A stretch of DNA of 64,000 nt. Source: a virus. The stretch spans positions 1 through 64,000 of IMG/VR virus record IMGVR_UViG_3300030419_006105. One strand, written 5' to 3'. Shown piece after piece: positions 4,413 through 61,036 of the stretch (positions are counted from its first letter, which is position 1; each line of letters begins with the position of its first letter). The notes beneath the pieces are model-generated. The model did not search any database, was not told the origin of the DNA, and worked only from the letters and a program-made list of their open reading frames with translations. The position numbers were made by a program, and so were the translations under genes.

Positions 4413-5921
4413 TTATGAATAAGATGGGTTACCAGCAGCCGTAGCAACACCCAATCCAACAACAAATACTACATGGTAGTAGTTCGCTGCACCAAATAGG
4501 TGATCAACAACGCCGTAACGTGTTAACATACCCACTTTCGGATAGAATGAATCTGGATCAATCGAACGTTGAACCATAACTGGAATGTAAGGACAGTAAA
4601 TGATACCAGTATCATAATACTCAGGACCTTTATAACCAAGCAATGCGTACTCAATCTTAGCAGACTCAGTAGCAGTTGTTAAGTTGTAAGTAGCCTCTGT
4701 GCGTGTATCGCGGTAGATGTTAAAACGTCCACCAACGTTACCAACCTTAGCAACACCAACCGGTTGAGTGTTAACGTTACCGTCAACAGTCATCCATGAG
4801 AACTCAGGAAGCATCTCAAGCAGAGCGCAAACACGAGGAGTTGCAACGATAAAGTTAGCAGCACCACGACGGTTACGAACAGCAAGCCTGTTTGCTTCTA
4901 CGATCAACCTCTGATAGAAGTCACGGTTTCTTTCACCCATCCAACGAGCATCAGCTGTTGAAGACTTCCAGATTGAATAACCAATGTTCTTACCAGCGCC
5001 TGTAGCGGCCTTGATCATGCGAACAATCATTTCACGATCGATTTCAGCTTGAATCTCATAAGACATAGCATTTGTCAACTCAGCGTCAACATCAATACCA
5101 TTCATGTTCTTGAGATCCTGCTCTAACTCAACAGACCAACGAGCGTTCAACCTACGAGTACCAGCTTCAACAGCTGTCTTCTCGAAGCTCAACTCAATAG
5201 TTGGAGCTGTCTTACCGTTATCAAGCTCGAAAGCAGACAACGCAGCAGCGAAACCTTGATCAGTAGCATTGAAACCAGCAGACAACCAGTGAGTAGCTGG
5301 AACATCTGTATGGTTACTAGCTGTGCCATCTAAAGCTGCACCAAGTGTAGCAGTAGCAGAAGCACCTGTAAAGGCTGTATCCAAGTTATTGTGACCCATT
5401 TCACCAGTAGGTGCACCAGAAGAACCAGTGCCAGCAGTACCAGCGACAGAACTACCATAAGGTACGGGCGAAATAGTATTGCCATCGATCTTATTAGCAG
5501 TGTACTTATAACGAAGAGCAAATGCGAGACCAACCGGACCACTCATTGGCTGAACACCAACGATTTCGTTAGTAATCAACTCAGGGAATGTACGGCGAAT
5601 CATCGGAATAAGAATCTTCGGTAAACGAGCATCACTTGCAGCATATGTGTCGGCATCGTTATACGAGCCAGCACCCTGTCCAGCAGCCGGTGAAGGCGTA
5701 CCAAACGATCCACTAGCACCACCAGAGGTGTTAGCTTCCTTCAAACACCATTCCTCTTGGTTCTCAAGAAGGATGGCGGTGTTCAAACGCGTATGAGCGT
5801 TATCGATTGCTGAAACTTTATCAGAGGTATAATCCAATACAGGACTCCACTTCTCCAACAATGCTTGAGCTCGACTATTATCAATATAGTCTGTATTAGG
5901 ACGAGTTTCTGTTTCGTTCAT
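4413..5921 (-). CDS. gp23: Major capsid protein gp23
   Basis: A 502-residue T4-type major head protein that forms the hexamers of the capsid. Typical blocks are ALLEKWSPVLD near the N-terminus, the LLENQEEWCLKEA arm, EIVGVQPMSGPVGLAFALRY, and a C-terminal region with YCPYIPVMVQRSIDPDSFYP. The LKE at residues 60-62 fits the gp21 cleavage rule ([LI]-x-E) and would release an N-terminal propeptide, as in T4. A glycine/alanine-rich segment ending in DTYAASDARLPKIL (91-104) is partly repeated in the late protein at 48810-49736. It follows gp22 on the same strand. Local codon use is more GC-rich than the accessory regions, as expected for a highly expressed gene. Confidence 0.97.
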   Translation of the reverse strand: MNETETRPNTDYIDNSRAQALLEKWSPVLDYTSDKVSAIDNAHTRLNTAILLENQEEWCLKEANTSGGASGSFGTPSPAAGQGAGSYNDADTYAASDARLPKILIPMIRRTFPELITNEIVGVQPMSGPVGLAFALRYKYTANKIDGNTISPVPYGSSVAGTAGTGSSGAPTGEMGHNNLDTAFTGASATATLGAALDGTASNHTDVPATHWLSAGFNATDQGFAAALSAFELDNGKTAPTIELSFEKTAVEAGTRRLNARWSVELEQDLKNMNGIDVDAELTNAMSYEIQAEIDREMIVRMIKAATGAGKNIGYSIWKSSTADARWMGERNRDFYQRLIVEANRLAVRNRRGAANFIVATPRVCALLEMLPEFSWMTVDGNVNTQPVGVAKVGNVGGRFNIYRDTRTEATYNLTTATESAKIEYALLGYKGPEYYDTGIIYCPYIPVMVQRSIDPDSFYPKVGMLTRYGVVDHLFGAANYYHVVFVVGLGVATAAGNPSYS

Positions 5922-7051: not shown

Positions 7052-7714
7052 TTAAATGTTTTTAATAAAAGCAATTATTTTATTTGTTAAATAATCACTC
7101 ACATCCTTAGACGGTAACTTCTTTAAACCCTCTTCAAATTTATCATAATGCTCTTCAAACTCACCTTTACGGTTTAAAATCCATTGTTTTGATTCTAAAA
7201 TACCGTTAACAAATGCATCAGAATATGACGGATCTGCTACACAATCAATAGCAACCAACTTCATTTCTGTAACATGACCAACATCAGAACCCGTATCCTG
7301 ATCAATTTTTCCTAATGCGCGAGATGACATACCAACACGAACACCATCTAAAACTAAATTCTTTACTATAGTACCTGTAGGGGTATTTAATACTTTACTC
7401 TTACCATAAAATATATTACCATCCTGTTTCATTTCGGTAACTATGTGACATGCTCTTTCTAGATCTACTTCCGCTGTAGTGGGATGATTCAATTCACCCA
7501 TGGCACGGTCTTGTTGAATCATTTCTTTGTCGTATCTACTTACTTCTTCAACCATATTATCTAAATCATAGATACGTTTATTTTTGTTAACATCAGACGC
7601 CATCATATAAGGGCCTTTGATATATAATCGTTCCCCTGACTTGGCATTCTTCTCTTCAACAATATATTCGAACTCAGACGGATCCGTTTTTTCGATTAAA
7701 AGTTTAAAGGCCAT
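7052..7714 (-). CDS. gp21: Prohead maturation protease gp21
   Basis: A 220-residue serine protease that cleaves scaffold and capsid propeptides after [LI]-x-E. The catalytic His lies in GELNHP (His77) and the nucleophile in VGMSSRALG (Ser130/131), the usual pattern for T4-type prohead proteases. It sits upstream of the core and scaffold genes and downstream of gp4. A late motif AATAAATA is 13 bases upstream of the ATG, a longer spacing than at other late genes. Besides gp22 and gp23, the N-termini of the late proteins at 46561-47784 and perhaps 48810-49736 may be substrates. Confidence 0.92.
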   Translation of the reverse strand: MAFKLLIEKTDPSEFEYIVEEKNAKSGERLYIKGPYMMASDVNKNKRIYDLDNMVEEVSRYDKEMIQQDRAMGELNHPTTAEVDLERACHIVTEMKQDGNIFYGKSKVLNTPTGTIVKNLVLDGVRVGMSSRALGKIDQDTGSDVGHVTEMKLVAIDCVADPSYSDAFVNGILESKQWILNRKGEFEEHYDKFEEGLKKLPSKDVSDYLTNKIIAFIKNI

Positions 7715-44481: not shown

Positions 44482-45243
44482 TTAAACTTTTAAAGCCATA
44501 TCCCATACAAGTAAATGCAATCTAGGACTAAATTTAAAATATTCTTGTTTAGCATACTCAGCTACTTCTTCAGCTATTTCAATATGCTCTTTTCTACTAC
44601 CTGCACAAGGCATTAACCAAACCCTTTCTCTTGGTATATTAAACTTCTCAACATACTTCTGTAAGACCTCTTCTAAATCTTCTTTCTTACTAATAACAAA
44701 CTTAAAACCTGACCCATTTGTTACATGCCATTTTAATACATCTGGTTTATATCGACGGTCTTCTGGATCACCATTATTACTAAGCTTAGGAGAAGTAGTA
44801 AAAGTTGCATCAACTCTTAACCATTCTGGATCTGGCATTATTGTTGCATTAGTTTCAAAATCTATCCGTGGTATAGTACCCCACTCTACATCTATATAAG
44901 CTAAAAATTTAAGTAATTTTGGTTGTTGTACAAGTGGTTCACCACCTGTTATCTTCCATATAGCACCATTATCTAAGTGTTTTTTATATCCTTCCTCTTC
45001 TAATAACGTTCTAAGTTCTTCAAAACTTAATTTATTTTTTACACTCCATGATATATAGCTATCACAACCATGAGGTGAATCTTCTGTTGCAAATCCTTGA
45101 CATGTAAGATTACACATAGATAATCTCATAAAAACAGACGGCCAACCAACATATTCACCTTCACCCTCTACCGTATAAAATACCTTATCGTCAGATAAAA
45201 ATATTTTTTCGTCTTTAAGCTCCTCCTTATAAAGATTTGTCAT
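44482..45243 (-). CDS. queE: 7-carboxy-7-deazaguanine synthase QueE (radical SAM)
   Basis: A 253-residue radical SAM enzyme that contracts carboxytetrahydropterin to CDG. FYTVEGEGEYVGWPSVFMRL (22-41) is the usual QueE opening, WKITGGEPLVQQ lies near residue 97, and FETNATIMP and SPKLSNNG follow. The cluster cysteines are C44-NLT-C48 with the third at C60, so the last spacing is 11 residues (ATEDSPHG insert) instead of the short spacing of ordinary radical SAM motifs. QueE proteins are known for variant cluster loops, so it may still be active. The start lies inside the 3' end of the small gene between queD and queE. Confidence 0.9.
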   Translation of the reverse strand: MTNLYKEELKDEKIFLSDDKVFYTVEGEGEYVGWPSVFMRLSMCNLTCQGFATEDSPHGCDSYISWSVKNKLSFEELRTLLEEEGYKKHLDNGAIWKITGGEPLVQQPKLLKFLAYIDVEWGTIPRIDFETNATIMPDPEWLRVDATFTTSPKLSNNGDPEDRRYKPDVLKWHVTNGSGFKFVISKKEDLEEVLQKYVEKFNIPRERVWLMPCAGSRKEHIEIAEEVAEYAKQEYFKFSPRLHLLVWDMALKV

Positions 45244-45376
45244 TTAAATATAAATCTTTTATATCTCGTGTCTCTGGTTTAACCTCTTTCTTCTTAGGTT
45301 TACCCCAATCAATACTATCCCAGTTATCATTAACTTGACAAGTATCTTCTTTTCGTCTTTTACTACCTTTACTCAT
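45227..45376 (-). CDS. Small basic protein coupled between queD and queE
   Basis: A 49-residue frame not long enough for most gene lists. It begins MSKGSKRRKEDTCQVNDNWD and contains WDSIDWGKPKKKEVKPETRD. The ATG overlaps the queD stop by one base (TAATG) and its end overlaps the queE start by 17 bases, so all three would be translated from one message. It is strongly charged with a single cysteine and no known motif. Tight coupling on both sides is the main evidence that it is real. Confidence 0.6.
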   Translation of the reverse strand: MSKGSKRRKEDTCQVNDNWDSIDWGKPKKKEVKPETRDIKDLYLNDKSL

Positions 45377-45861
45377 TAGTTTTGAACCCATTCGTATTGA
45401 GTATCTGATAAAGCTCTGGCATATTCAATATGATATATAGCAGAATTTTTCTCATGCTCAAAAACTTCTACCTTCTTACACCAACATCTATTATCAGTTG
45501 ATTCCTTTACATAATCATCAGCAGCTTTCCAGCAATATTGTGCAAATTTTTCAATACCAACTCCATCAGACATAATACGTAAATCAATTATACCTAATTC
45601 ATTTAATTCTTCAAATTTATTTAAATATGGATCGTTTGCATCAATAACCGTAGTATGATCAAATTGATTTTCTAATATTTTCTTTAAATGTTTCAAATCT
45701 CCAAAATCAACAACCCAATTATTTTCATCTAATTCTTTAGCTTCAAACCAAAATTTACCAACTAATCGATAACCATGTACAAACCGACAATGTGAATCTG
45801 CTTTTGGTTGTCTAAAGGCGCAGCTGCCTAATTCAATAATCTTTGTACTATTAAAAGACAT
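45376..45861 (-). CDS. queD: 6-carboxy-5,6,7,8-tetrahydropterin synthase QueD
   Basis: A 161-residue member of the QueD/PTPS family that converts dihydroneopterin triphosphate to carboxytetrahydropterin. The catalytic-Cys region reads SHCRFVHGY (23-31), NNWVVDFGDLKHLKKILENQ and FDHTTVID follow, and a C-terminal VEVFEHEKNSAIY provides the Glu. In standard QueD the zinc site is HGH; here it is HGY, so one His ligand is replaced. A marine phage subfamily may share this, which I recall but cannot verify. It heads the queD-small-queE-kinase operon, divergent from folE across 72 bases with back-to-back promoters. Confidence 0.85.
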   Translation of the reverse strand: MSFNSTKIIELGSCAFRQPKADSHCRFVHGYRLVGKFWFEAKELDENNWVVDFGDLKHLKKILENQFDHTTVIDANDPYLNKFEELNELGIIDLRIMSDGVGIEKFAQYCWKAADDYVKESTDNRCWCKKVEVFEHEKNSAIYHIEYARALSDTQYEWVQN

Positions 45862-45868
45862 AAGATCT

Positions 45869-45896
45869 ATTATACATTAATCTAAAATAAAATCAA
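45869..45896 (-). promoter_or_regulatory. Early promoter of the queD operon
   Basis: On the - strand: TTGATT (45896-45891), 16-base spacer, TATAAT (45874-45869), seven bases to the queD ATG at 45861. It is back to back with the folE promoter, the two -35 boxes being only three bases apart. Confidence 0.8.
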
Positions 45897-45899
45897 GGG

Positions 45900-45927
45900 T
45901 TGAATTTAAAAAAAAATTTCATATAAT
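45900..45927 (+). promoter_or_regulatory. Early promoter of folE
   Basis: TTGAAT (45900-45905), 16-base spacer, TATAAT (45922-45927), six bases to the ATG at 45934. Leaderless layout, divergent from the queD promoter. Confidence 0.8.
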
Positions 45928-45933
45928 AAACTC

Positions 45934-46569
45934 ATGAGTGAATTACTGCAATATGCAAATGGTAACTTACCGCGAACTGAAGAAGAAAAAGAAATAATTA
46001 TTGATAAAGCCGCGGCTGCATATGAAAAATATATGGATGCTTTAGGGTTTGATTGGAGAAATGATCCTAATAGCGCTGATACCCCAAGACGTGTAGCAAA
46101 AGCTTTTGTTAATGACTTAGCAGAAGGTTGTTATAATGTACCTCCTAAAATTACAGCATTTGATAATGTTGATAAATATGATGGATTAGTTTTTCAAGGT
46201 AATATAAAAGTTAATTCTTTTTGCTCACATCACCATTTACCGTTTATCGGGCAAGCTCATGTATCTTACATACCTGGAAAAGACGGAAAAGTAATTGGTT
46301 TAAGTAAAATAAATCGAATTGTCGAATGGTTTTCGAGACGTCCGCAAGTACAAGAAAACTTAACTATGCAAATTCATAATTATATGAATGAAGTATGTAA
46401 AGATAATAAAGGAATTGCTGTTTTAGTATCAGCTAACCATACTTGTGCTGGTCTAAGAGGAGTAAAACATGATAGTATTATGAAAACTGCTAGAATGTCA
46501 GGAGCATTTTTAGATAAAACTGATTTAACCAGACAAGAGTTTTATGATTTTATAAGAGACTTAAAGTGA
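45934..46569 (+). CDS. folE: GTP cyclohydrolase I (FolE)
   Basis: A 211-residue enzyme that opens GTP to dihydroneopterin triphosphate, the first step to both folate and 7-deazaguanine. DPNSADTPRRVAKAFVNDL (near residues 46-64), NSFCSHHHLPFIGQAHVSYI with the zinc Cys and His (about 93-112), GLSKINRIVEWFSRRPQVQE and the zinc Cys in SANHTCAGLRG are all present. The length is typical. The gene is monocistronic; its stop overlaps the convergent nucleotidyltransferase gene end by nine bases. Its promoter matches that of queD, so both are expected to be expressed together. Confidence 0.96.
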   Translation: MSELLQYANGNLPRTEEEKEIIIDKAAAAYEKYMDALGFDWRNDPNSADTPRRVAKAFVNDLAEGCYNVPPKITAFDNVDKYDGLVFQGNIKVNSFCSHHHLPFIGQAHVSYIPGKDGKVIGLSKINRIVEWFSRRPQVQENLTMQIHNYMNEVCKDNKGIAVLVSANHTCAGLRGVKHDSIMKTARMSGAFLDKTDLTRQEFYDFIRDLK

Positions 46570-47784
46570 GTCAAAAATTTCTTTAATTTGTGCAGGGTCG
46601 ATATGCTCCGGTATATCGGCTTTTATTTTCTCAAAATTATCAAAATTATCTCTTATATTACTCGCACTATAAGGGGTACCATCTGCTTTTAATGTAACAT
46701 CAACAGCAGACTGTGCTGGATCAACTATATCAATTTCTAATCCTTCTTTTTCAGCCCATGGTTGTGCATGTGACCATCTTTTCCAATCATTATCTTTTCT
46801 ACTAGCACCTAACACAACTGTTGTACCTGGATCTAACGTCTTTAATGTCTCATATGCTGATGTAACGGGGGATGGGAACTGTGAGATACTAACAGTTACG
46901 TTATTAAGAGGTTGTGTATATAATTCAAATATTTGTTTTGCAGCATCTGGTGTAATCAATTTACCATCACTAGTTCTTCTTTCACTTTTAGCTGAAGGAG
47001 CTGAGATTAATACATGAACATGACCGTCAGGATACAATTGACTATACTCTTTAACCATTTCGTAATGGCCTTTATGAGGTGGTTTAAAACTACCAGGAAC
47101 AAGAACGACTACTCTACTGTTTTTTTTTACATCTTCAATAGCAGTATTAGCAGCAATAGAAAGTTTACTTTGTAAGTCTTGTAACTCAAAATTTTCTAAA
47201 ATAGAATCTATCTTAGAATCAAACCCTTCACTCAATCCATAATCAACTACAATTTTGCGTAAAATTTTTGCTATCTCTTTTGCGTTTTCAGGTTGTACAT
47301 CTTGTGTAATTGCTTCTCTTTCAGAATCTGATAAACTAACATTATCTAAATCTACAAACAATGACTTACGAGCAAGATTAACATAAAAAGTTTCACCTTC
47401 TGTAGTCATAGGATCTGGAGTTGGTTCTTCTTCTGGTTGTTGAGTGAAATCATCTTTACTTGCTGGCTCAAATTCACCACCTGTTTCAGGACCCTTTCTA
47501 GGTGTAAATTCATCATCTTCAGCTTCAAGTACTTTACCTTTAGGTTTATTACTTGACATAGCAACTTTAGCTAATTGCTTTCCAGCAGCCATAGTAGCCT
47601 TTTTTAATCCTTGCAAAAGCTTTTTCTGCACTGGAGTAGGTTTTTTAGTAGGATCTGTCTTACCAGCGATTTCAGCTGCTCTAGCTGCAGCTATTGCAGC
47701 TTGAGTACCAGCTTGTTTTTGTTGATATTTATTAGCACCGGCCTCACTTAATAGATTGTCTATTTTCGTGGTAAACTTACTCAT
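46561..47784 (-). CDS. Late protein with C-terminal HIGH-type nucleotidyltransferase domain
   Basis: A 407-residue protein in two parts. Residues 1-215 are Ala/Lys/Glu/Pro-rich, with an opening MSKFTTKIDNLLSEA that resembles the T4 capsid-targeting peptide, ending in an [LI]-x-E site (LSE, 12-14) where gp21 could cut. Residues 220-400 form a nucleotidyltransferase fold: VVLVPGSFKPPHKGHYEMV gives the HIGH-like site (236-240) and PYSASNIRD (371-379) the second nucleotide loop, as in NMN and pantetheine adenylyltransferases. A perfect late element TATAAATA lies six bases upstream. A packaged, injected enzyme is suggested; the substrate is unknown. Confidence 0.75.
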   Translation of the reverse strand: MSKFTTKIDNLLSEAGANKYQQKQAGTQAAIAAARAAEIAGKTDPTKKPTPVQKKLLQGLKKATMAAGKQLAKVAMSSNKPKGKVLEAEDDEFTPRKGPETGGEFEPASKDDFTQQPEEEPTPDPMTTEGETFYVNLARKSLFVDLDNVSLSDSEREAITQDVQPENAKEIAKILRKIVVDYGLSEGFDSKIDSILENFELQDLQSKLSIAANTAIEDVKKNSRVVVLVPGSFKPPHKGHYEMVKEYSQLYPDGHVHVLISAPSAKSERRTSDGKLITPDAAKQIFELYTQPLNNVTVSISQFPSPVTSAYETLKTLDPGTTVVLGASRKDNDWKRWSHAQPWAEKEGLEIDIVDPAQSAVDVTLKADGTPYSASNIRDNFDNFEKIKADIPEHIDPAQIKEIFDSL

Positions 47785-47798: not shown

Positions 47799-48336
47799 GG
47801 AGAGAAAGTTTATTTCTTATGTCTTCGAAATATGTTTTGTCTAAAAATGTAAGCTCATATTTCTTACAAAAATAATGTAGTCTGTTAAAATAATAGTCTG
47901 TATTTTGTATCTTCTTAAGCTTGCGAAGTAATATTATGCTTAATTCTTCTTTATAACCATCACATTTGCATTTTTTCTTGAGTTCCTTAAGAGAATACAT
48001 TTCTCTTATTATTAATACTGGAAATTTTTTCTCAAAAGTCTGTAAAAACGACGAGTATTTCGTATTTAAATCAACATCAACATCAAAATATATAACAGGT
48101 TTATTCTTTTTATTATGAGCTTTAAGAACCTCGCATGTATAATGTATAAAATAATGAAAAATATATTTTTTATGTAGAGAATTGTTAAATTTAAGCTCAG
48201 GAGAAAATTCAGAAATTTTATCTATAGAAATATTATGAATATAATTAATTACTGGAGTAAAATTTACTAAATTAAAATAGGAACCAGGTATTCTATAACT
48301 TAATCCCGGTATTTTCGTTAATTCTTCTAAGTGCAT
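47794..48336 (-). CDS. Hypothetical protein, 180 aa
   Basis: Not recognised. A 180-residue protein rich in Tyr, Phe, Lys and Ile. A central strand PVIYFDVDVDLN (about 79-90) has alternating acidic residues that could be a metal site. A KKKCKCDGY segment near residue 119 is the only cysteine cluster. It overlaps the 3' end of the nuclease gene by 44 bases, implying coupled expression, and has no promoter of its own. Confidence 0.62.
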   Translation of the reverse strand: MHLEELTKIPGLSYRIPGSYFNLVNFTPVINYIHNISIDKISEFSPELKFNNSLHKKYIFHYFIHYTCEVLKAHNKKNKPVIYFDVDVDLNTKYSSFLQTFEKKFPVLIIREMYSLKELKKKCKCDGYKEELSIILLRKLKKIQNTDYYFNRLHYFCKKYELTFLDKTYFEDIRNKLSLL

Positions 48337-48796
48337 CTGCGTTATTCTGCCAAAACTCTGTATAATTAGTTATAATATATTTGTTAGCATAACGCAAGTA
48401 ATTTTTAAATCGGAAATAATGTGACATTGTAGTTGGAAATAAAATAAAACTACCCCTCCTTGTCACTTTGATAACAAGAAACCAACAACTACCACTCTCT
48501 GCTTGCTTGATCCATTTATTAAGAGTTTTATTATCGGTAAACAATTGATGAAAATCAAATGATTTATAACTTTTACACTCGATTTTAAATTTCGATAAAC
48601 ACGGTGGTACCATGATATCTCCATCCATCATCCGTTTTTGATCTTCCGTTAGTTTATCAAGTCTGTGAAGATTAGCGCCTCCAGTATAGGCTCCGGAATT
48701 TGGAACTCTAATAAAATTTTCATTAAACGTTTCACTTAAATCTTTTGCAACTTCGCGTTCCCAAGCGTTACCTTTTTGTTTCGCTGCGCTAGGCAT
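48293..48796 (-). CDS. PD-(D/E)XK nuclease, Holliday junction resolvase-like
   Basis: A 167-residue protein with KQKGNAWEREVAKDL (6-20, the leading Glu), RVPNSGAYTGG (35-45), MDGDIMVP (catalytic Asp near 60) and FKIECKSYKSF (E-x-K near 73). This order is typical of archaeal-type Hjc resolvases and related phage nucleases, which cut branched DNA. T4 uses gp49 for this task, so it may be the replacement that trims branched DNA before packaging. A weak late-like AGTAAATA lies three bases upstream. Cutting specificity is unknown. Confidence 0.72.
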   Translation of the reverse strand: MPSAAKQKGNAWEREVAKDLSETFNENFIRVPNSGAYTGGANLHRLDKLTEDQKRMMDGDIMVPPCLSKFKIECKSYKSFDFHQLFTDNKTLNKWIKQAESGSCWFLVIKVTRRGSFILFPTTMSHYFRFKNYLRYANKYIITNYTEFWQNNADALRRINENTGIKL

Positions 48797-48809: not shown

Positions 48810-49736
48810 TCACTTAACCAGATCTTGCAAGTTAATAGCTTGCTTAACTGCATCTTTCGGAATTTGAGCTGTCCAATAATTACCTTCATCAGCAGGTTGT
48901 AATTCAGGTAATTTATCTCTATCTAATATAAGTAAATAACCTCTACCGGTTTCTTTATATACATGAAATGCAAATCTACCAGCTAATTGAATATCATCCG
49001 AAACATACGAACCAGTAATACCTTTGCGCGTATTACCAGCTCCACGTGAAACAACAAAACCATGTTTAATTAAATTTTTGTATTCCGCAGAAGAAATCCC
49101 GCGATAGACTTCGCTAGGGTCGTTTTGTAGTTTAGCAATTTTAGCAACGATATTTTCGTGTTCTTCTCCTTCTGGTGGGAATAAAAGGTAGTCATATATA
49201 CTTTTTTCGTTAATTGTAAAATTTTTAATAATACCATGATATTCAAATGTACTATCATCATCAATTACATTTTCGTCATTATGTAATTTGTTTAAATTTA
49301 AATTATTAATAGGGATAGATAAAATAACAATTTGATCTAACCAAGAATCCGGAACTACATCGTTTGTTTCTGCGTAACTATAAGCAACGTCAGGATCTTT
49401 AGCTAGATAAACTACCCCAGGCTTACTATCTTCCCAATTAGTCTGGGCTCCAGATCCTCCTAAACCATTTTTTTGTATACTCTTTAATAACGGTTTATAC
49501 GTTGCGTGATATAAAATGTCATTACTTTCGTTTAGTTTTTTTTTACGCTTTTTAGTTTTAACTTTACCTTGTCGCTTTATTGTAACACCTAAAACCTTAG
49601 GTATTCTATTATCTCCTGGTGCATAAGTATCAGTAGCTTCATAATCTCCTCCACCTTGTCCTCCACCAGCAGCCATTCCTGCAGAAGCTGTAGTATTATC
49701 CGTTAAATACTGTTTAACTGCTTCATCGAATTTCAT
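48810..49736 (-). CDS. Late protein with two ADP-ribosyltransferase-like domains and a capsid-arm-like N-terminus
   Basis: A 308-residue protein. Residues 26-55 resemble residues 81-110 of gp23 (shared GQG, DTYA and R-x-PK-x-L; 16 of 30 identical by eye), and a basic TKKRKKK linker follows. Domain 1 (about 72-175) opens with ILYHATYKPL, then VVYLAKDPDVAYSYA and FEYHG, an H-Y-E pattern like ART-fold proteins. Domain 2 (about 208-300) has VYRGISSAEYK, ITGSYVSDD and a closing NYWTAQIP, an R-S-E-like pattern with no clear ExE. A late promoter and head-type N-terminus suggest packaging, like T4 Alt. Target unknown. Confidence 0.68.
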   Translation of the reverse strand: MKFDEAVKQYLTDNTTASAGMAAGGGQGGGDYEATDTYAPGDNRIPKVLGVTIKRQGKVKTKKRKKKLNESNDILYHATYKPLLKSIQKNGLGGSGAQTNWEDSKPGVVYLAKDPDVAYSYAETNDVVPDSWLDQIVILSIPINNLNLNKLHNDENVIDDDSTFEYHGIIKNFTINEKSIYDYLLFPPEGEEHENIVAKIAKLQNDPSEVYRGISSAEYKNLIKHGFVVSRGAGNTRKGITGSYVSDDIQLAGRFAFHVYKETGRGYLLILDRDKLPELQPADEGNYWTAQIPKDAVKQAINLQDLVK

Positions 49737-49742
49737 TATAAT

Positions 49743-49750
49743 TATTTATC
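49743..49750 (-). promoter_or_regulatory. Late promoter motif GATAAATA
   Basis: Seven of eight matches to the late element, six bases before the ATG at 49736. It faces away from the early promoter of the + strand recombination operon. Confidence 0.55.
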
Positions 49751-49800: not shown

Positions 49801-50205
49801 ATGGATGTTAGTGAGATTATTAATCAATATCTTGAAGAAGCTAATATAGATACAGATTTAGATCGATTAGAAGTTGTTACTACTCAGGAAAGATTAGTAA
49901 ATAATAAACATAAATGGTCAGCTCGATTAATAAATCATAAAATTAATTTAAATAATTTTAAGTTAAAGAGAACTTCTATTCTTGAGGAAAAAATTACCGA
50001 ATTTCAAAATACAGAACCCGTAAAAGTTAATAGATCAATAGCAGAAAAAGCTGTTCAAAATAAAAAAGAAATTAGAGTTTTAGATTTAAAAATTAAAAAT
50101 GAACAACTAATTATTGACTACCTAGAAAACATCTACAAAAATATAAGTTTCGCTACTAATGATATTAAAAATTTAGTAGAACTTATGAAGCTTGAAACAC
50201 AATGA
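49801..50205 (+). CDS. Hypothetical coiled-coil protein, 134 aa
   Basis: A 134-residue, Lys/Glu/Asn-rich helical protein with heptad-like repeats over about residues 35-125. It opens MDVSEIINQYLEEANIDTDL. It is first in the recombination operon and overlaps the uvsW start by four bases. The size, charge and position would suit a small mediator such as T4 UvsY, but no sequence similarity was recognised. The ATG at 49801 is chosen because a TATAAT lies six bases upstream; the TTG at 49768 is inside the promoter. Confidence 0.7.
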   Translation: MDVSEIINQYLEEANIDTDLDRLEVVTTQERLVNNKHKWSARLINHKINLNNFKLKRTSILEEKITEFQNTEPVKVNRSIAEKAVQNKKEIRVLDLKIKNEQLIIDYLENIYKNISFATNDIKNLVELMKLETQ

Positions 50206-51641
50206 TTAATATTAAATTTAATTCTTCTTCTCATGCTGTTATTGACGGACCTGAGCTTGATATTATACGTGAACATTTTAGCGTAAAAAATGACGCTGTA
50301 CATTTTCAGCGTCGTTACGGAAGATTTGTTCCTCCAAGAACATATGTTATCACTAATCAAGGGAAAGTAGAAATAGGTCTAATAGAAGAAATAATAAAAT
50401 TTTGTTTACAAAAACAGATAAAATTTGAATTACAAAAAGAAATAAAAGAAATACTTTATCCATCTTTATCTAAAAAACATACAACACCATATGATTTAAA
50501 ATTAAAATTAAGAGACTATCAACAAGAAATAATTGAAAAATGTATTAATGCTGGACGTGGTACAGTAGTCTTAGCAACCGCTGGAGGTAAAACTCTTACT
50601 ATGGCTAGTCTTTTAGAATTTTATTACAAAAATTATAGTAAAAATTTTAAATGTTTAATTATTGTTCCTGATTTAGGTCTAGTAAATCAAACAAATGGAG
50701 ATTTTAAAGAATATGGTACATCGTTTACAACATCAAAATGGACAGGTAAAAACGAATTAGATTTATCTTCTAATGTTGTGGTAGCGAATTTAGGTATTTT
50801 ACAAAGTTCAAAACAATCTATAGATTGGATTAAACATATAGATCTTCTTATTATTGACGAAGTACATAAATTAAGAAGAGGAAATAAAGTAAATAAAATT
50901 TTAAAAAACGTAAACACTAATAATCGATTTGGATTCACTGGGACATTACCACCAGATAATTTAGATAAATGGAATATTTTTGGTAAAATAGGTCCTCAGT
51001 TGTTTGAAAAAAAAGCTCATGAGCTAAGAAAGGATAATTATGTAGCACCAGCTAAAGTTCATGTATTAGAATTAAATTATAACACTCCATGTGAGCAAAT
51101 ATATCATGGAAACAATAGTAATGCTTATTATCTACAGGAAAATGAATTTATACGTAGTAGTGAATATAGAAATAATTTAATTGCTAAATTATGCAATAAG
51201 CTTGACAATAACGGATTAATATTAGTCGACTATATTGAACATGGAGAACTTTTGTTAGAAGCTCTCCAAGGAATTTGCAAGTATAAAGATGTATATTTTA
51301 TACAAGGTAGTGTAGATACAGATCAACGTAAAGATATACAAGACTATATGGAGGCACAAAAGAATGTAGTTGTAATTGCTATTTCAAAAATATTTTCTAC
51401 AGGTATTAATATTAAGAATTTACACTACATTATATTTGGTGGTGGTGGAAAAGCTAAAATAAAAATAATACAGAGCATAGGTCGAGGCCTACGCTTGCAT
51501 ATTGATAAAGAAGAGCTTATAATCTTTGATATAGCTGATAACTTACGATATGGTCAACGTCATGTAGAACAAAGATTATCATTATATGACAGTGAACATA
51601 TAGAATATACATTTACACAATTTAATGAAACAAAAAAATAA
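50202..51641 (+). CDS. uvsW: UvsW-like DNA/RNA helicase
   Basis: A 479-residue superfamily 2 helicase. LRDYQQEIIEKCINAGRGTV leads to Walker A ATAGGKT (about 124-130), IIVPDLGLVNQ, then LLIIDEVHKLR (DEVH near 213-216) and GFTGTLPP. Motif VI is IIQSIGRGLRLH near the C-terminus. UvsW unwinds R-loops and branched DNA and shuts off origin-dependent replication in T4. It overlaps both neighbours and is cotranscribed with genes 55, 47 and 46. Confidence 0.93.
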   Translation: MINIKFNSSSHAVIDGPELDIIREHFSVKNDAVHFQRRYGRFVPPRTYVITNQGKVEIGLIEEIIKFCLQKQIKFELQKEIKEILYPSLSKKHTTPYDLKLKLRDYQQEIIEKCINAGRGTVVLATAGGKTLTMASLLEFYYKNYSKNFKCLIIVPDLGLVNQTNGDFKEYGTSFTTSKWTGKNELDLSSNVVVANLGILQSSKQSIDWIKHIDLLIIDEVHKLRRGNKVNKILKNVNTNNRFGFTGTLPPDNLDKWNIFGKIGPQLFEKKAHELRKDNYVAPAKVHVLELNYNTPCEQIYHGNNSNAYYLQENEFIRSSEYRNNLIAKLCNKLDNNGLILVDYIEHGELLLEALQGICKYKDVYFIQGSVDTDQRKDIQDYMEAQKNVVVIAISKIFSTGINIKNLHYIIFGGGGKAKIKIIQSIGRGLRLHIDKEELIIFDIADNLRYGQRHVEQRLSLYDSEHIEYTFTQFNETKK

Positions 51642-59259: not shown

Positions 59260-60348
59260 ATGGCTTCTCTCGCTGATAAAGCGTTCGCTAAATTACAAAA
59301 ATTAAATCAGAACGCAACTACATTAGAAAATAATACTCTAAGTAATGTAACCGAATGGATTGATACTGGATGTTTAGTACTTAATTCAATAGTATCAGGT
59401 TCGATTTATGGTGGTGTACCTAAGGGTAGAATTACCATTTTTGCTGGAGATTCTGGTTGCGGTAAAACATTTATTTTAAATAAAATATTAGCGAACGCTC
59501 AGCAAAAGGGAATGATTCCAATCATATTTGATACGGAGGTTGCTGTAGAAAATGAAGGTGCAGAAAATGTTGGATTAGATACATCAAACGTAAAGTACGT
59601 ACCAGTTGATACAGTAGAAAATTGTCGTAATCAAATTATGACCTTTTTAGATGAAGTTGAAAAAGAACCAGAACTACATGGTAAGTTTATTATTTCAATT
59701 GACTCTTTAGGTAATTTAGCGTCATCAAAAGAAATTCATGATGCTGAATCTAATAAAGGCGCCATGGATATGGGGCTAAGAGCTAAACAGCTTAAATCCA
59801 TGATGCGTATGGTTACGTTTAAAGCAGCTGTTACTGGTACAACTGTAATTTGTAGTAATCATACTTATGCTGATCCTGGTGCACTCCATCCTACCTTAGT
59901 TAAGTCCCAGGCTGGTGGCTCTGGTCCCATATACATGGCGTCTATATTAGTACAAATGGCAGCGAAAAAAGAACGAACTGATACAGGTAATGATAGTGAT
60001 GAAGCTTTAACCGAGAGTAGAAATTACTCTGGTGTTACTCTTCGTATGTTAACAGTAAAAAATAGATTTATACCTGCATTCCTTCAAGGTGAAGCATACT
60101 TAAACTTTAAAACTGGTTTAGAAAAATACTCAGGTCTAAAAGACGTTGCTGTAGCTCACGGCATTATTCAGCAAAACGGTTCTACATATAGTATGGGAGA
60201 TAAAAAATTAGGTTATTATAAAAATTGGCGCAACGATGATGAGACGTGGAATAATATATTACCTAAGTTAGAATCTTCTATAAGTGAGAAGTACCGATAT
60301 GGTAAATCACTTAATGAAGTAGCTATATTAGAACAAGACGATGAGTAA
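59260..60348 (+). CDS. uvsX: UvsX, RecA-like recombinase
   Basis: A 362-residue recombinase. Walker A is FAGDSGCGKT (about 62-71), FDTEVAVENEGAE lies near 90, Walker B is IISIDSLGNLAS (about 143-154), and SNHTYADPGALHPT with a SQAGGSGPIYMAS L2 region follows, as in T4 UvsX. The start is the ATG at 59260, two bases after the previous stop; an ATG four codons upstream would overlap the preceding gene. UvsX drives strand exchange with gp46/47 and UvsW, all encoded here. Confidence 0.95.
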   Translation: MASLADKAFAKLQKLNQNATTLENNTLSNVTEWIDTGCLVLNSIVSGSIYGGVPKGRITIFAGDSGCGKTFILNKILANAQQKGMIPIIFDTEVAVENEGAENVGLDTSNVKYVPVDTVENCRNQIMTFLDEVEKEPELHGKFIISIDSLGNLASSKEIHDAESNKGAMDMGLRAKQLKSMMRMVTFKAAVTGTTVICSNHTYADPGALHPTLVKSQAGGSGPIYMASILVQMAAKKERTDTGNDSDEALTESRNYSGVTLRMLTVKNRFIPAFLQGEAYLNFKTGLEKYSGLKDVAVAHGIIQQNGSTYSMGDKKLGYYKNWRNDDETWNNILPKLESSISEKYRYGKSLNEVAILEQDDE

Positions 60349-61036
60349 AGCAGTAGTTCCTATTTCGGGTGGTTTAGATAGTTCAATAATTCTAAGCTTA
60401 GCATCTCAAAAGCATGATGAAGTTTATGCATTAACTTATGACTATGGTCAAAAGCATAGAAAAGAAATCATAGCTGCTAGTAGTCAAATAAATGAATATG
60501 ATAATATAGAAGATCATGTAACTATAGATATTAGATTCTTTAGAGATATTGCTTCAACTTCTTCTCTTACTAATAATAATATTAAAGTGGCACATGCGAG
60601 GGATGTGTTAGGAGACGCTCAAACAGTAAATTATGTTCCATTTAGAAATATGATGATGCTATCAATTGCATGCTCATATGCAGAGTCAGTAGAAGCAGAT
60701 GTCGTATATCATGGATCAGCTCTAGTAGATAGTCAAGCTGGTTATTGGGACGGTAGTGCAGAATTTTTAGAACAAATTAATAACGTAACAGCGTTAAACC
60801 GTAAAAATAGAATACGGATAGAAGCACCATTAATTACATTATCTAAACAAGAAATTGTAAAGTTAGGTATCGATAATAATATAAATTTTGAAGACACATG
60901 GACATGTTATGAAGGGAAAGATAAAGCATGTGGTTATTGTACGGCATGTAGTTCTCGAATACAAGGCTTTTTGCAAAATAATATTAAAGACCCAATAGAA
61001 TATGAACGCGACGATATCCCCTGGAAAGGAACTTGA
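60341..61036 (+). CDS. queC: 7-cyano-7-deazaguanine (preQ0) synthase QueC
   Basis: A 231-residue PP-loop ATPase that turns CDG through the amide (ADG) into preQ0. The ATP-binding VPISGGLDSSIIL (6-18), YDYGQKHRKEI (39-49) and VNYVPFRNMMML (105-116) blocks and the C-terminal zinc motif ending ACGYCTACSSR are all typical. It overlaps uvsX by eight bases and is cotranscribed with replication genes. The nearby amidotransferase (61958) may feed it ammonia; in some phages the two are fused as Gat-QueC. Confidence 0.95.
   Translation: MSKAVVPISGGLDSSIILSLASQKHDEVYALTYDYGQKHRKEIIAASSQINEYDNIEDHVTIDIRFFRDIASTSSLTNNNIKVAHARDVLGDAQTVNYVPFRNMMMLSIACSYAESVEADVVYHGSALVDSQAGYWDGSAEFLEQINNVTALNRKNRIRIEAPLITLSKQEIVKLGIDNNINFEDTWTCYEGKDKACGYCTACSSRIQGFLQNNIKDPIEYERDDIPWKGT

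Follow-up and report, generated by a model that had tools for sequence, protein, structure and literature searches.

In bacteriophage T4, internal proteins tagged with a capsid targeting sequence (CTS) and the ADP-ribosyltransferase (ART) Alt are packaged in the head, cut at L/I-X-E, the motif after which the prohead protease gp21 cleaves, and ejected (PMC9026906); the internal proteins combine varied cargo with a conserved CTS (PMC3012670). The major capsid protein gp23 has an N-fist that touches four neighbouring subunits, and its N-termini shift outward when the head expands (PMC9958956). Here we consider a gene of an uncultivated T4-like phage that resembles both systems. It lies on the minus strand at 48810-49736 of a 64,000-nucleotide stretch (hereafter the window), positions 1 to 64,000 of the IMG/VR record IMGVR_UViG_3300030419_006105. 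Its 308-residue product (ATG at 49736, stop at 48810-48812) begins with a gp23-like segment, and we lean towards the view that the uncultivated phage group to which it belongs loads cargo by means of a tag that is a piece of its major capsid protein, set in front of interchangeable, stackable effector cassettes. The features on which this view rests are as follows, with a slash marking each putative cut.

48810..49736, minus strand: whole gene, comprising a putative targeting module (residues 1-67), cassette A (68-174) and cassette B (175-308)
49743..49750, minus strand: GATAAATA, T4-type late-promoter-like box immediately 5' of the ATG (motif)
49698..49736, minus strand: residues 1-13, N-terminal helix MKFDEAVKQYLTD, resembling a capsid targeting sequence (model, clade comparison and T4 CTS rules; PMC9026906)
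49572..49673, minus strand: residues 22-55, gp23-like arm GG..DTYAPGDNRIPKVLGVTIKR (protein search and reciprocal profiles)
49536..49571, minus strand: residues 56-67, Lys/Arg-rich linker closing the constant module
49527..49535, minus strand: LNE(70)/S, prohead-protease-like [LI]xE at the border of module and cassette A, moving with the cassette
49215..49526, minus strand: domain A (71-174), YHAT...VYLAKDPDVAYSYA...FEYHGII, ART-like by weak sequence evidence
49206..49214, minus strand: INE(177)/K, second [LI]xE, at the border of cassettes A and B
48813..49205, minus strand: domain B (178-308), with a predicted ART fold from residue 206 and invariant R212, S246 and E284
4413..5921, minus strand: gp23 major capsid protein (PHROG 138, E = 2e-86), origin of the mimicked segment (5592-5693)

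Besides the protein itself, a search of the 116,366-base record recovered gp23 alone, at 5592-5693 on the minus strand, which aligns with residues 22 to 55 at 47% identity (E = 3.4e-5). The alignment holds 16 identities in 34 columns; an earlier note made from the letters alone had counted 16 of 30 residues by eye. When a module profile was made from 84 other proteins, excluding the window protein, and run against the record's 221 open reading frames, its sole matches at E ≤ 10 were the window protein (E = 9e-28) and gp23 (E = 3e-10). In the same set, a gp23-arm profile from 62 other phages recovered gp23 first, then the window protein (E = 5e-8), and nothing besides these two. Because the reciprocal profiles are exclusive, and because the segment recurs in other records, where a gp23-sized protein is the sole other match, chance similarity is ruled out: the module derives from gp23 or mimics it. 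By alignment, the arm corresponds to about residues 66 to 100 of T4 gp23, directly after the maturation cut, which in T4 terms is the N-fist and the beginning of the N-arm. The likeness to gp23 lies in this arm, whereas the HK97-fold body of gp23 and gp24 is absent, the match being confined to about residues 20 to 56 and the remainder being linker and enzyme cargo. The order of short propeptide and then arm resembles that of T4 gp24 (MAKINELLRE/S). An AlphaFold2 model, of low confidence here, places a helix at residues 3 to 15. The earlier note had proposed a search of the proteome for other packaged proteins with the segment; no second such protein was found in the record, and there is one module gene per phage.

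Pattern scans of IMG/VR at the DNA level, which also returned many gp23 genes, yielded at least 94 distinct non-gp23 module proteins. These have in common a short helix, a Gly-rich stretch, the motif [DG]D[TS]YAPGDxRxPKxLG and a Lys-rich tail. In each of 33 further virus records there is one module gene, with a gp23-sized protein as the only other match. The gene adjoins uvsY-uvsW-55-47-46, in divergent orientation, in about 40 loci whose UvsW proteins are 42 to 87% identical, and in the window the slot is marked by three neighbours.

49801..50205, plus strand: UvsY-like gene, divergent neighbour marking the conserved slot
50202..51641, plus strand: UvsW helicase, slot marker
48293..48796, minus strand: RusA-like resolvase, bordering the slot at its opposite end

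The module is therefore a single-copy gene in a fixed slot of dozens of uncultivated T4-like phages, a group that resembles the Far-T4 phages (PMC4360716) and is putatively placed near them. Late expression, as expected of a T4-type internal protein, is supported by the promoter motif: ATAAATA stands in the final 40 nucleotides before the start in 52 of 73 distinct homologous loci, compared to 2.9 in shuffles, and this enrichment, together with the GATAAATA box before the ATG, supports the earlier description of a late gene. No module was recovered from cultivated phages by tblastn, where low-complexity masking may hide some, and neither Rhodothermus phage RM378 nor the stretches of T4 and cyanophages examined contained a match to the module profile. 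A small gene behind gp23 in cyanophage P-TIM68 seemed a possible relative but proved unrelated, and T4 Inh shows no similarity to the gp23 arm. Among the papers searched, none was found to describe such a module. Four cargo-free module proteins (L061, L072, L134 and L161) end in IPIQRRTFTYF, comparable to IPMIRRTFPEL in gp23, and each of these small proteins as a whole therefore resembles a gp23 arm interrupted by a Lys-rich insertion.

What follows the Lys-rich linker varies from phage to phage: nothing, domain A, domain B, both, a VYRGT domain, a ParB-like domain, DUF5661 (E = 3.5e-16) or other short tails. Among about 50 homologs, A and B occur together in two, A alone in two and B alone in over 40. 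We considered whether domain B also exists as a module-free gene, but of the 48 loci that encode it, the pattern identifies the module in 45, two have a degenerate form of it and the remaining one is truncated. Exchange of cassettes is directly visible between near-identical phages, whose flanks are 94 to 98% identical. Between locus L232 (module plus A) and loci L178 and L194 (module only), identity is 98% on the upstream side, up to and including the linker, and 96% on the downstream side; what separates them is precisely the cassette running from LNES to FTI and the stop codon. Likewise, the window and locus L004 (module plus B) have flanks that are 96% and 95% identical and differ by about 310 bp, which is domain A. 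Such one-cassette differences imply that the double form arose by stacking A before B, or the single forms by loss. Ratios of nonsynonymous to synonymous substitution rates (dN/dS) of 0.083 for domain B and 0.14 for the gp23-like arm point to strong constraint on both. The earlier note had remarked on the double-ART layout as unfamiliar at this size; with cassette A gained or lost between near-identical phages and B-only forms dominating the homologs, the arrangement reads as two interchangeable stacked cassettes, rather than one designed two-domain enzyme. In five loci (L055, L064, L126, L181 and L203), the module is fused to a DGNHR-motif domain that looks ParB/sulfiredoxin-like by eye, with a conserved [LAS]xGE[ED] after the linker that might be the protease site of that clade.

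The motifs from which the earlier note proposed two ART-like domains, YHAT at 76 and YRG at 211, are both present (Y76-H77-A-T and Y211-R212-G213), and structure prediction supports the proposal for domain B. Although the full-length AlphaFold2 model has a mean pLDDT (predicted local distance difference test score) of 45, the core of domain B reaches 66 to 79. Compared against PDB chains, residues 206 to 308 match Tpt1/KptA best (Z = 7.8, 3.0 Å over 86 residues), and the first 34 ranked matches (Z = 7.8 to 4.0) are Tpt1/KptA, ARTs of the cholera toxin/heat-labile toxin (CT/LT) or pertussis type, or the structural-genomics protein CC0527. PARP ARTs are also among the matches, which belong near-exclusively to ART families. 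R212, S246 (and S243) and E284 are invariant in a 31-sequence alignment and in the domain alignment, and the R-S-E assignment is based on this conservation among homologs. With moderate confidence, since Z stays below 8, domain B is therefore predicted to adopt the ART beta-sandwich fold. The likeness to Tpt1/KptA and toxin-type ARTs extends over about 85 residues, at only 10 to 19% identity, and domain B lacks the N-terminal KptA lobe.

For domain A, the evidence is suggestive. Its sequence matches are weak, though each is to an ART (Pfam exotoxin-A catalytic domain, E = 0.017; PDB, E = 1.4), and PHROG 13493, of unknown function, matches a stretch covering it (E = 3e-4). H77, Y110 and E165 provide a candidate H-Y-E triad. 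Prevotella phage Lak-B5, one of the Lak megaphages, encodes a full-length homolog (L283, 901-1077) in which the His is kept and Y110 and E165 are each replaced by Phe (the former within GVFLATD). The domain A model has a pLDDT of 51 and no PDB match with Z ≥ 2, a viral structure library was uninformative for a model of such low confidence, and NCBIfam and PADLOC returned nothing for either domain. Of the two proposed ART-like domains, the fold of B thus stands and that of A is unconfirmed. A domain A-like stretch (YHAT...GVYTATD) also occurs at about 901-1041 in an annotated internal virion protein of the T7-like Synechococcus phage S-CBP42 (L284; E = 3; PARP Pfam, E = 0.16), possibly another ejected ART-like domain.

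Between the targeting part and the putative mature proteins lie candidate sites for the prohead protease, as in T4-type internal proteins (LNE70/S and INE177/K), and the window encodes a candidate enzyme for cutting them.

7052..7714, minus strand: gp21-like head maturation protease (PHROG 207, E = 2e-55)

Three [LI]xE motifs occur in the protein, two of them (residues 68-70 and 175-177) exactly at the borders and one (276-278) within domain B; both borders bore the motif in 0.14% of shuffles. With a motif at each border, domains A and B would probably be released separately. Within the clade of the window, cargo-bearing forms have [LI]xE behind the linker and cargo-free forms (L178/L194, L049, L132 and L192) lack it, a pattern seen among related sequences rather than independent events.

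Taken together, we think it probable that the gene encodes a capsid-targeting carrier protein: it would bring exchangeable effectors into the prohead, where a protease would free them for injection. The protein would be made late and brought into the prohead with the capsid protein by its N-terminal helix and gp23-like arm. The arm mimics the N-terminus of mature gp23, a segment that clamps adjacent subunits in T4, and could thereby dock on the shell, with the Lys-rich linker facing the interior and the DNA. A gp21-type protease would then cleave at LNE70/S and INE177/K, freeing A and B from the tag, and the freed domains may remain with the DNA in the head and enter the host on infection. There, at least domain B may modify a host target with NAD+, as T4 Alt does. 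The cargo part would thus serve as a plug-in slot for cassettes that bring their own protease site. The exclusive match to gp23, the single module gene per record, the ART-like fold of domain B, the constraint on domain B and the arm, the fixed slot, the late box, the cassette swaps and the motifs at the borders all favor this loading-and-injection model, as do the T4 precedents and the divergent position of the T4 head genes inh and hoc relative to uvsW. The earlier idea of an effector packaged by virtue of a segment that mimics the capsid is strengthened, because the segment recurs before unrelated cargo, as a targeting tag should.

Other observations weigh against the model. Directly behind the N-terminal helix, where a T4-type CTS has its [LI]xE, the clade of the window has YLTD; the sister and outer clades, like gp23, have [LI]xE at this point. 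In T4 internal protein III (IPIII), targeting tolerates an Asp at that position but processing does not (PMC9026906), which would leave LNE70 as the only site for removal of the tag. The third motif, LPE278, lies inside domain B; the model of domain A is too poor to confirm an ART fold; and in the outer clades cargo is small or absent in most genes, so the module may originally have served a structural role.

This last point touches an alternative that we regard as unlikely, in which the module acts as a small shell or decoration protein, occupies the capsid sites of gp23 N-arms and holds the ART domains on or in the capsid, with neither release nor injection. Cargo-free forms of 55 to 95 residues are indeed common, T4 gp23 N-termini are on the outer surface after expansion (PMC9958956), and T4 encodes Hoc at a comparable place, inh and hoc, both head-related, being divergent from uvsW. 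However, the [LI]xE at the junction moves together with the cargo, the Lys-rich linker fits contact with DNA, and strongly constrained enzymes would serve little purpose on the exterior of a marine phage capsid. The same T4 neighborhood lends something to a rather improbable explanation, in which the protein regulates assembly or links core to shell, its arm competing with or capping gp23 while the prohead assembles and its cargo modifying the phage's own capsid or scaffold proteins: T4 Inh regulates the prohead protease, and a single-copy gene in a fixed slot across a broad clade, with its arm under purifying selection, would suit such a role. Gain and loss of cargo between near-identical phages suits host-directed effectors, not an assembly function. 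Finally, cyanophages carry gp22 and gp23 immediately upstream of uvsY-uvsW, which makes a local gp23 remnant conceivable, so the N-terminus could be left over from a gp23 duplication in front of an ordinary, unpackaged intracellular late ART. We consider this very improbable, as the arm is conserved both before unrelated cargo and alone, at its dN/dS of 0.14, and where gp23 has a propeptide of about 60 residues there is a short helix rather than a simple deletion.

Compared with the systems of T4, the predicted carrier has an ART domain and late, head-associated expression like Alt, and is likewise predicted to be trimmed at [LI]xE and delivered with the DNA. In contrast, Alt has a propeptide of six residues (ITE-6; PMC5694885), no gp23-like arm, and one large enzyme in place of two small cassettes; among phage records, Alt, ModA and ModB gave no match with the whole protein at E ≤ 10. 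The carrier shares with IPI-III a constant N-terminal tag, varied cargo and predicted release by the prohead protease (PMC3012670, PMC9026906), but the T4 tag is about 10 residues long and cut right behind the helix, whereas here it spans about 67 residues with the gp23 arm and Lys-rich linker and, in this clade, has no such cut. The T4 internal proteins are also encoded by several genes, compared to one slot here. Without the cut behind the helix and without sequence homology to Alt, we file the protein under neither the T4 internal proteins nor Alt. A further parallel comes from encapsulins, in which a short peptide docks varied enzymes to an HK97-type shell (PMC8346489); the loading peptides there are not known to be copies of the shell protein, and no maturation protease step is known.

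Elsewhere in the window, a nucleotidyltransferase-like protein encoded in the same operon (46561-47784, minus strand) has a long variable N-terminus with a CTS-like start, LSE/A. This start is confined to the window and L143 and not conserved in relatives, so the idea of a second CTS-tagged protein was dropped. A large island at 17000-43000, between the structural and replication genes, holds genes resembling those for glycosyltransferases and for sugar-nucleotide, radical SAM and thiamine-diphosphate enzymes, and genes resembling QueE, QueD, FolE and QueC by eye (44482-46569 and 60341-61036) suggest possible deazaguanine modification of the phage DNA.

The proteins that a phage injects usually remain unknown until virion proteomics is done. 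Should the module prove to be a tag for loading into the head, what many uncultivated phages inject could be read from their sequences by finding the tag and then the domain behind it. The presence of ART domains among the cargo seen fits a role in host takeover or counter-defence. If true, the module would represent a second solution to the cargo problem of T4, in which the docking segment of the phage's own shell was copied in place of a separate targeting peptide.
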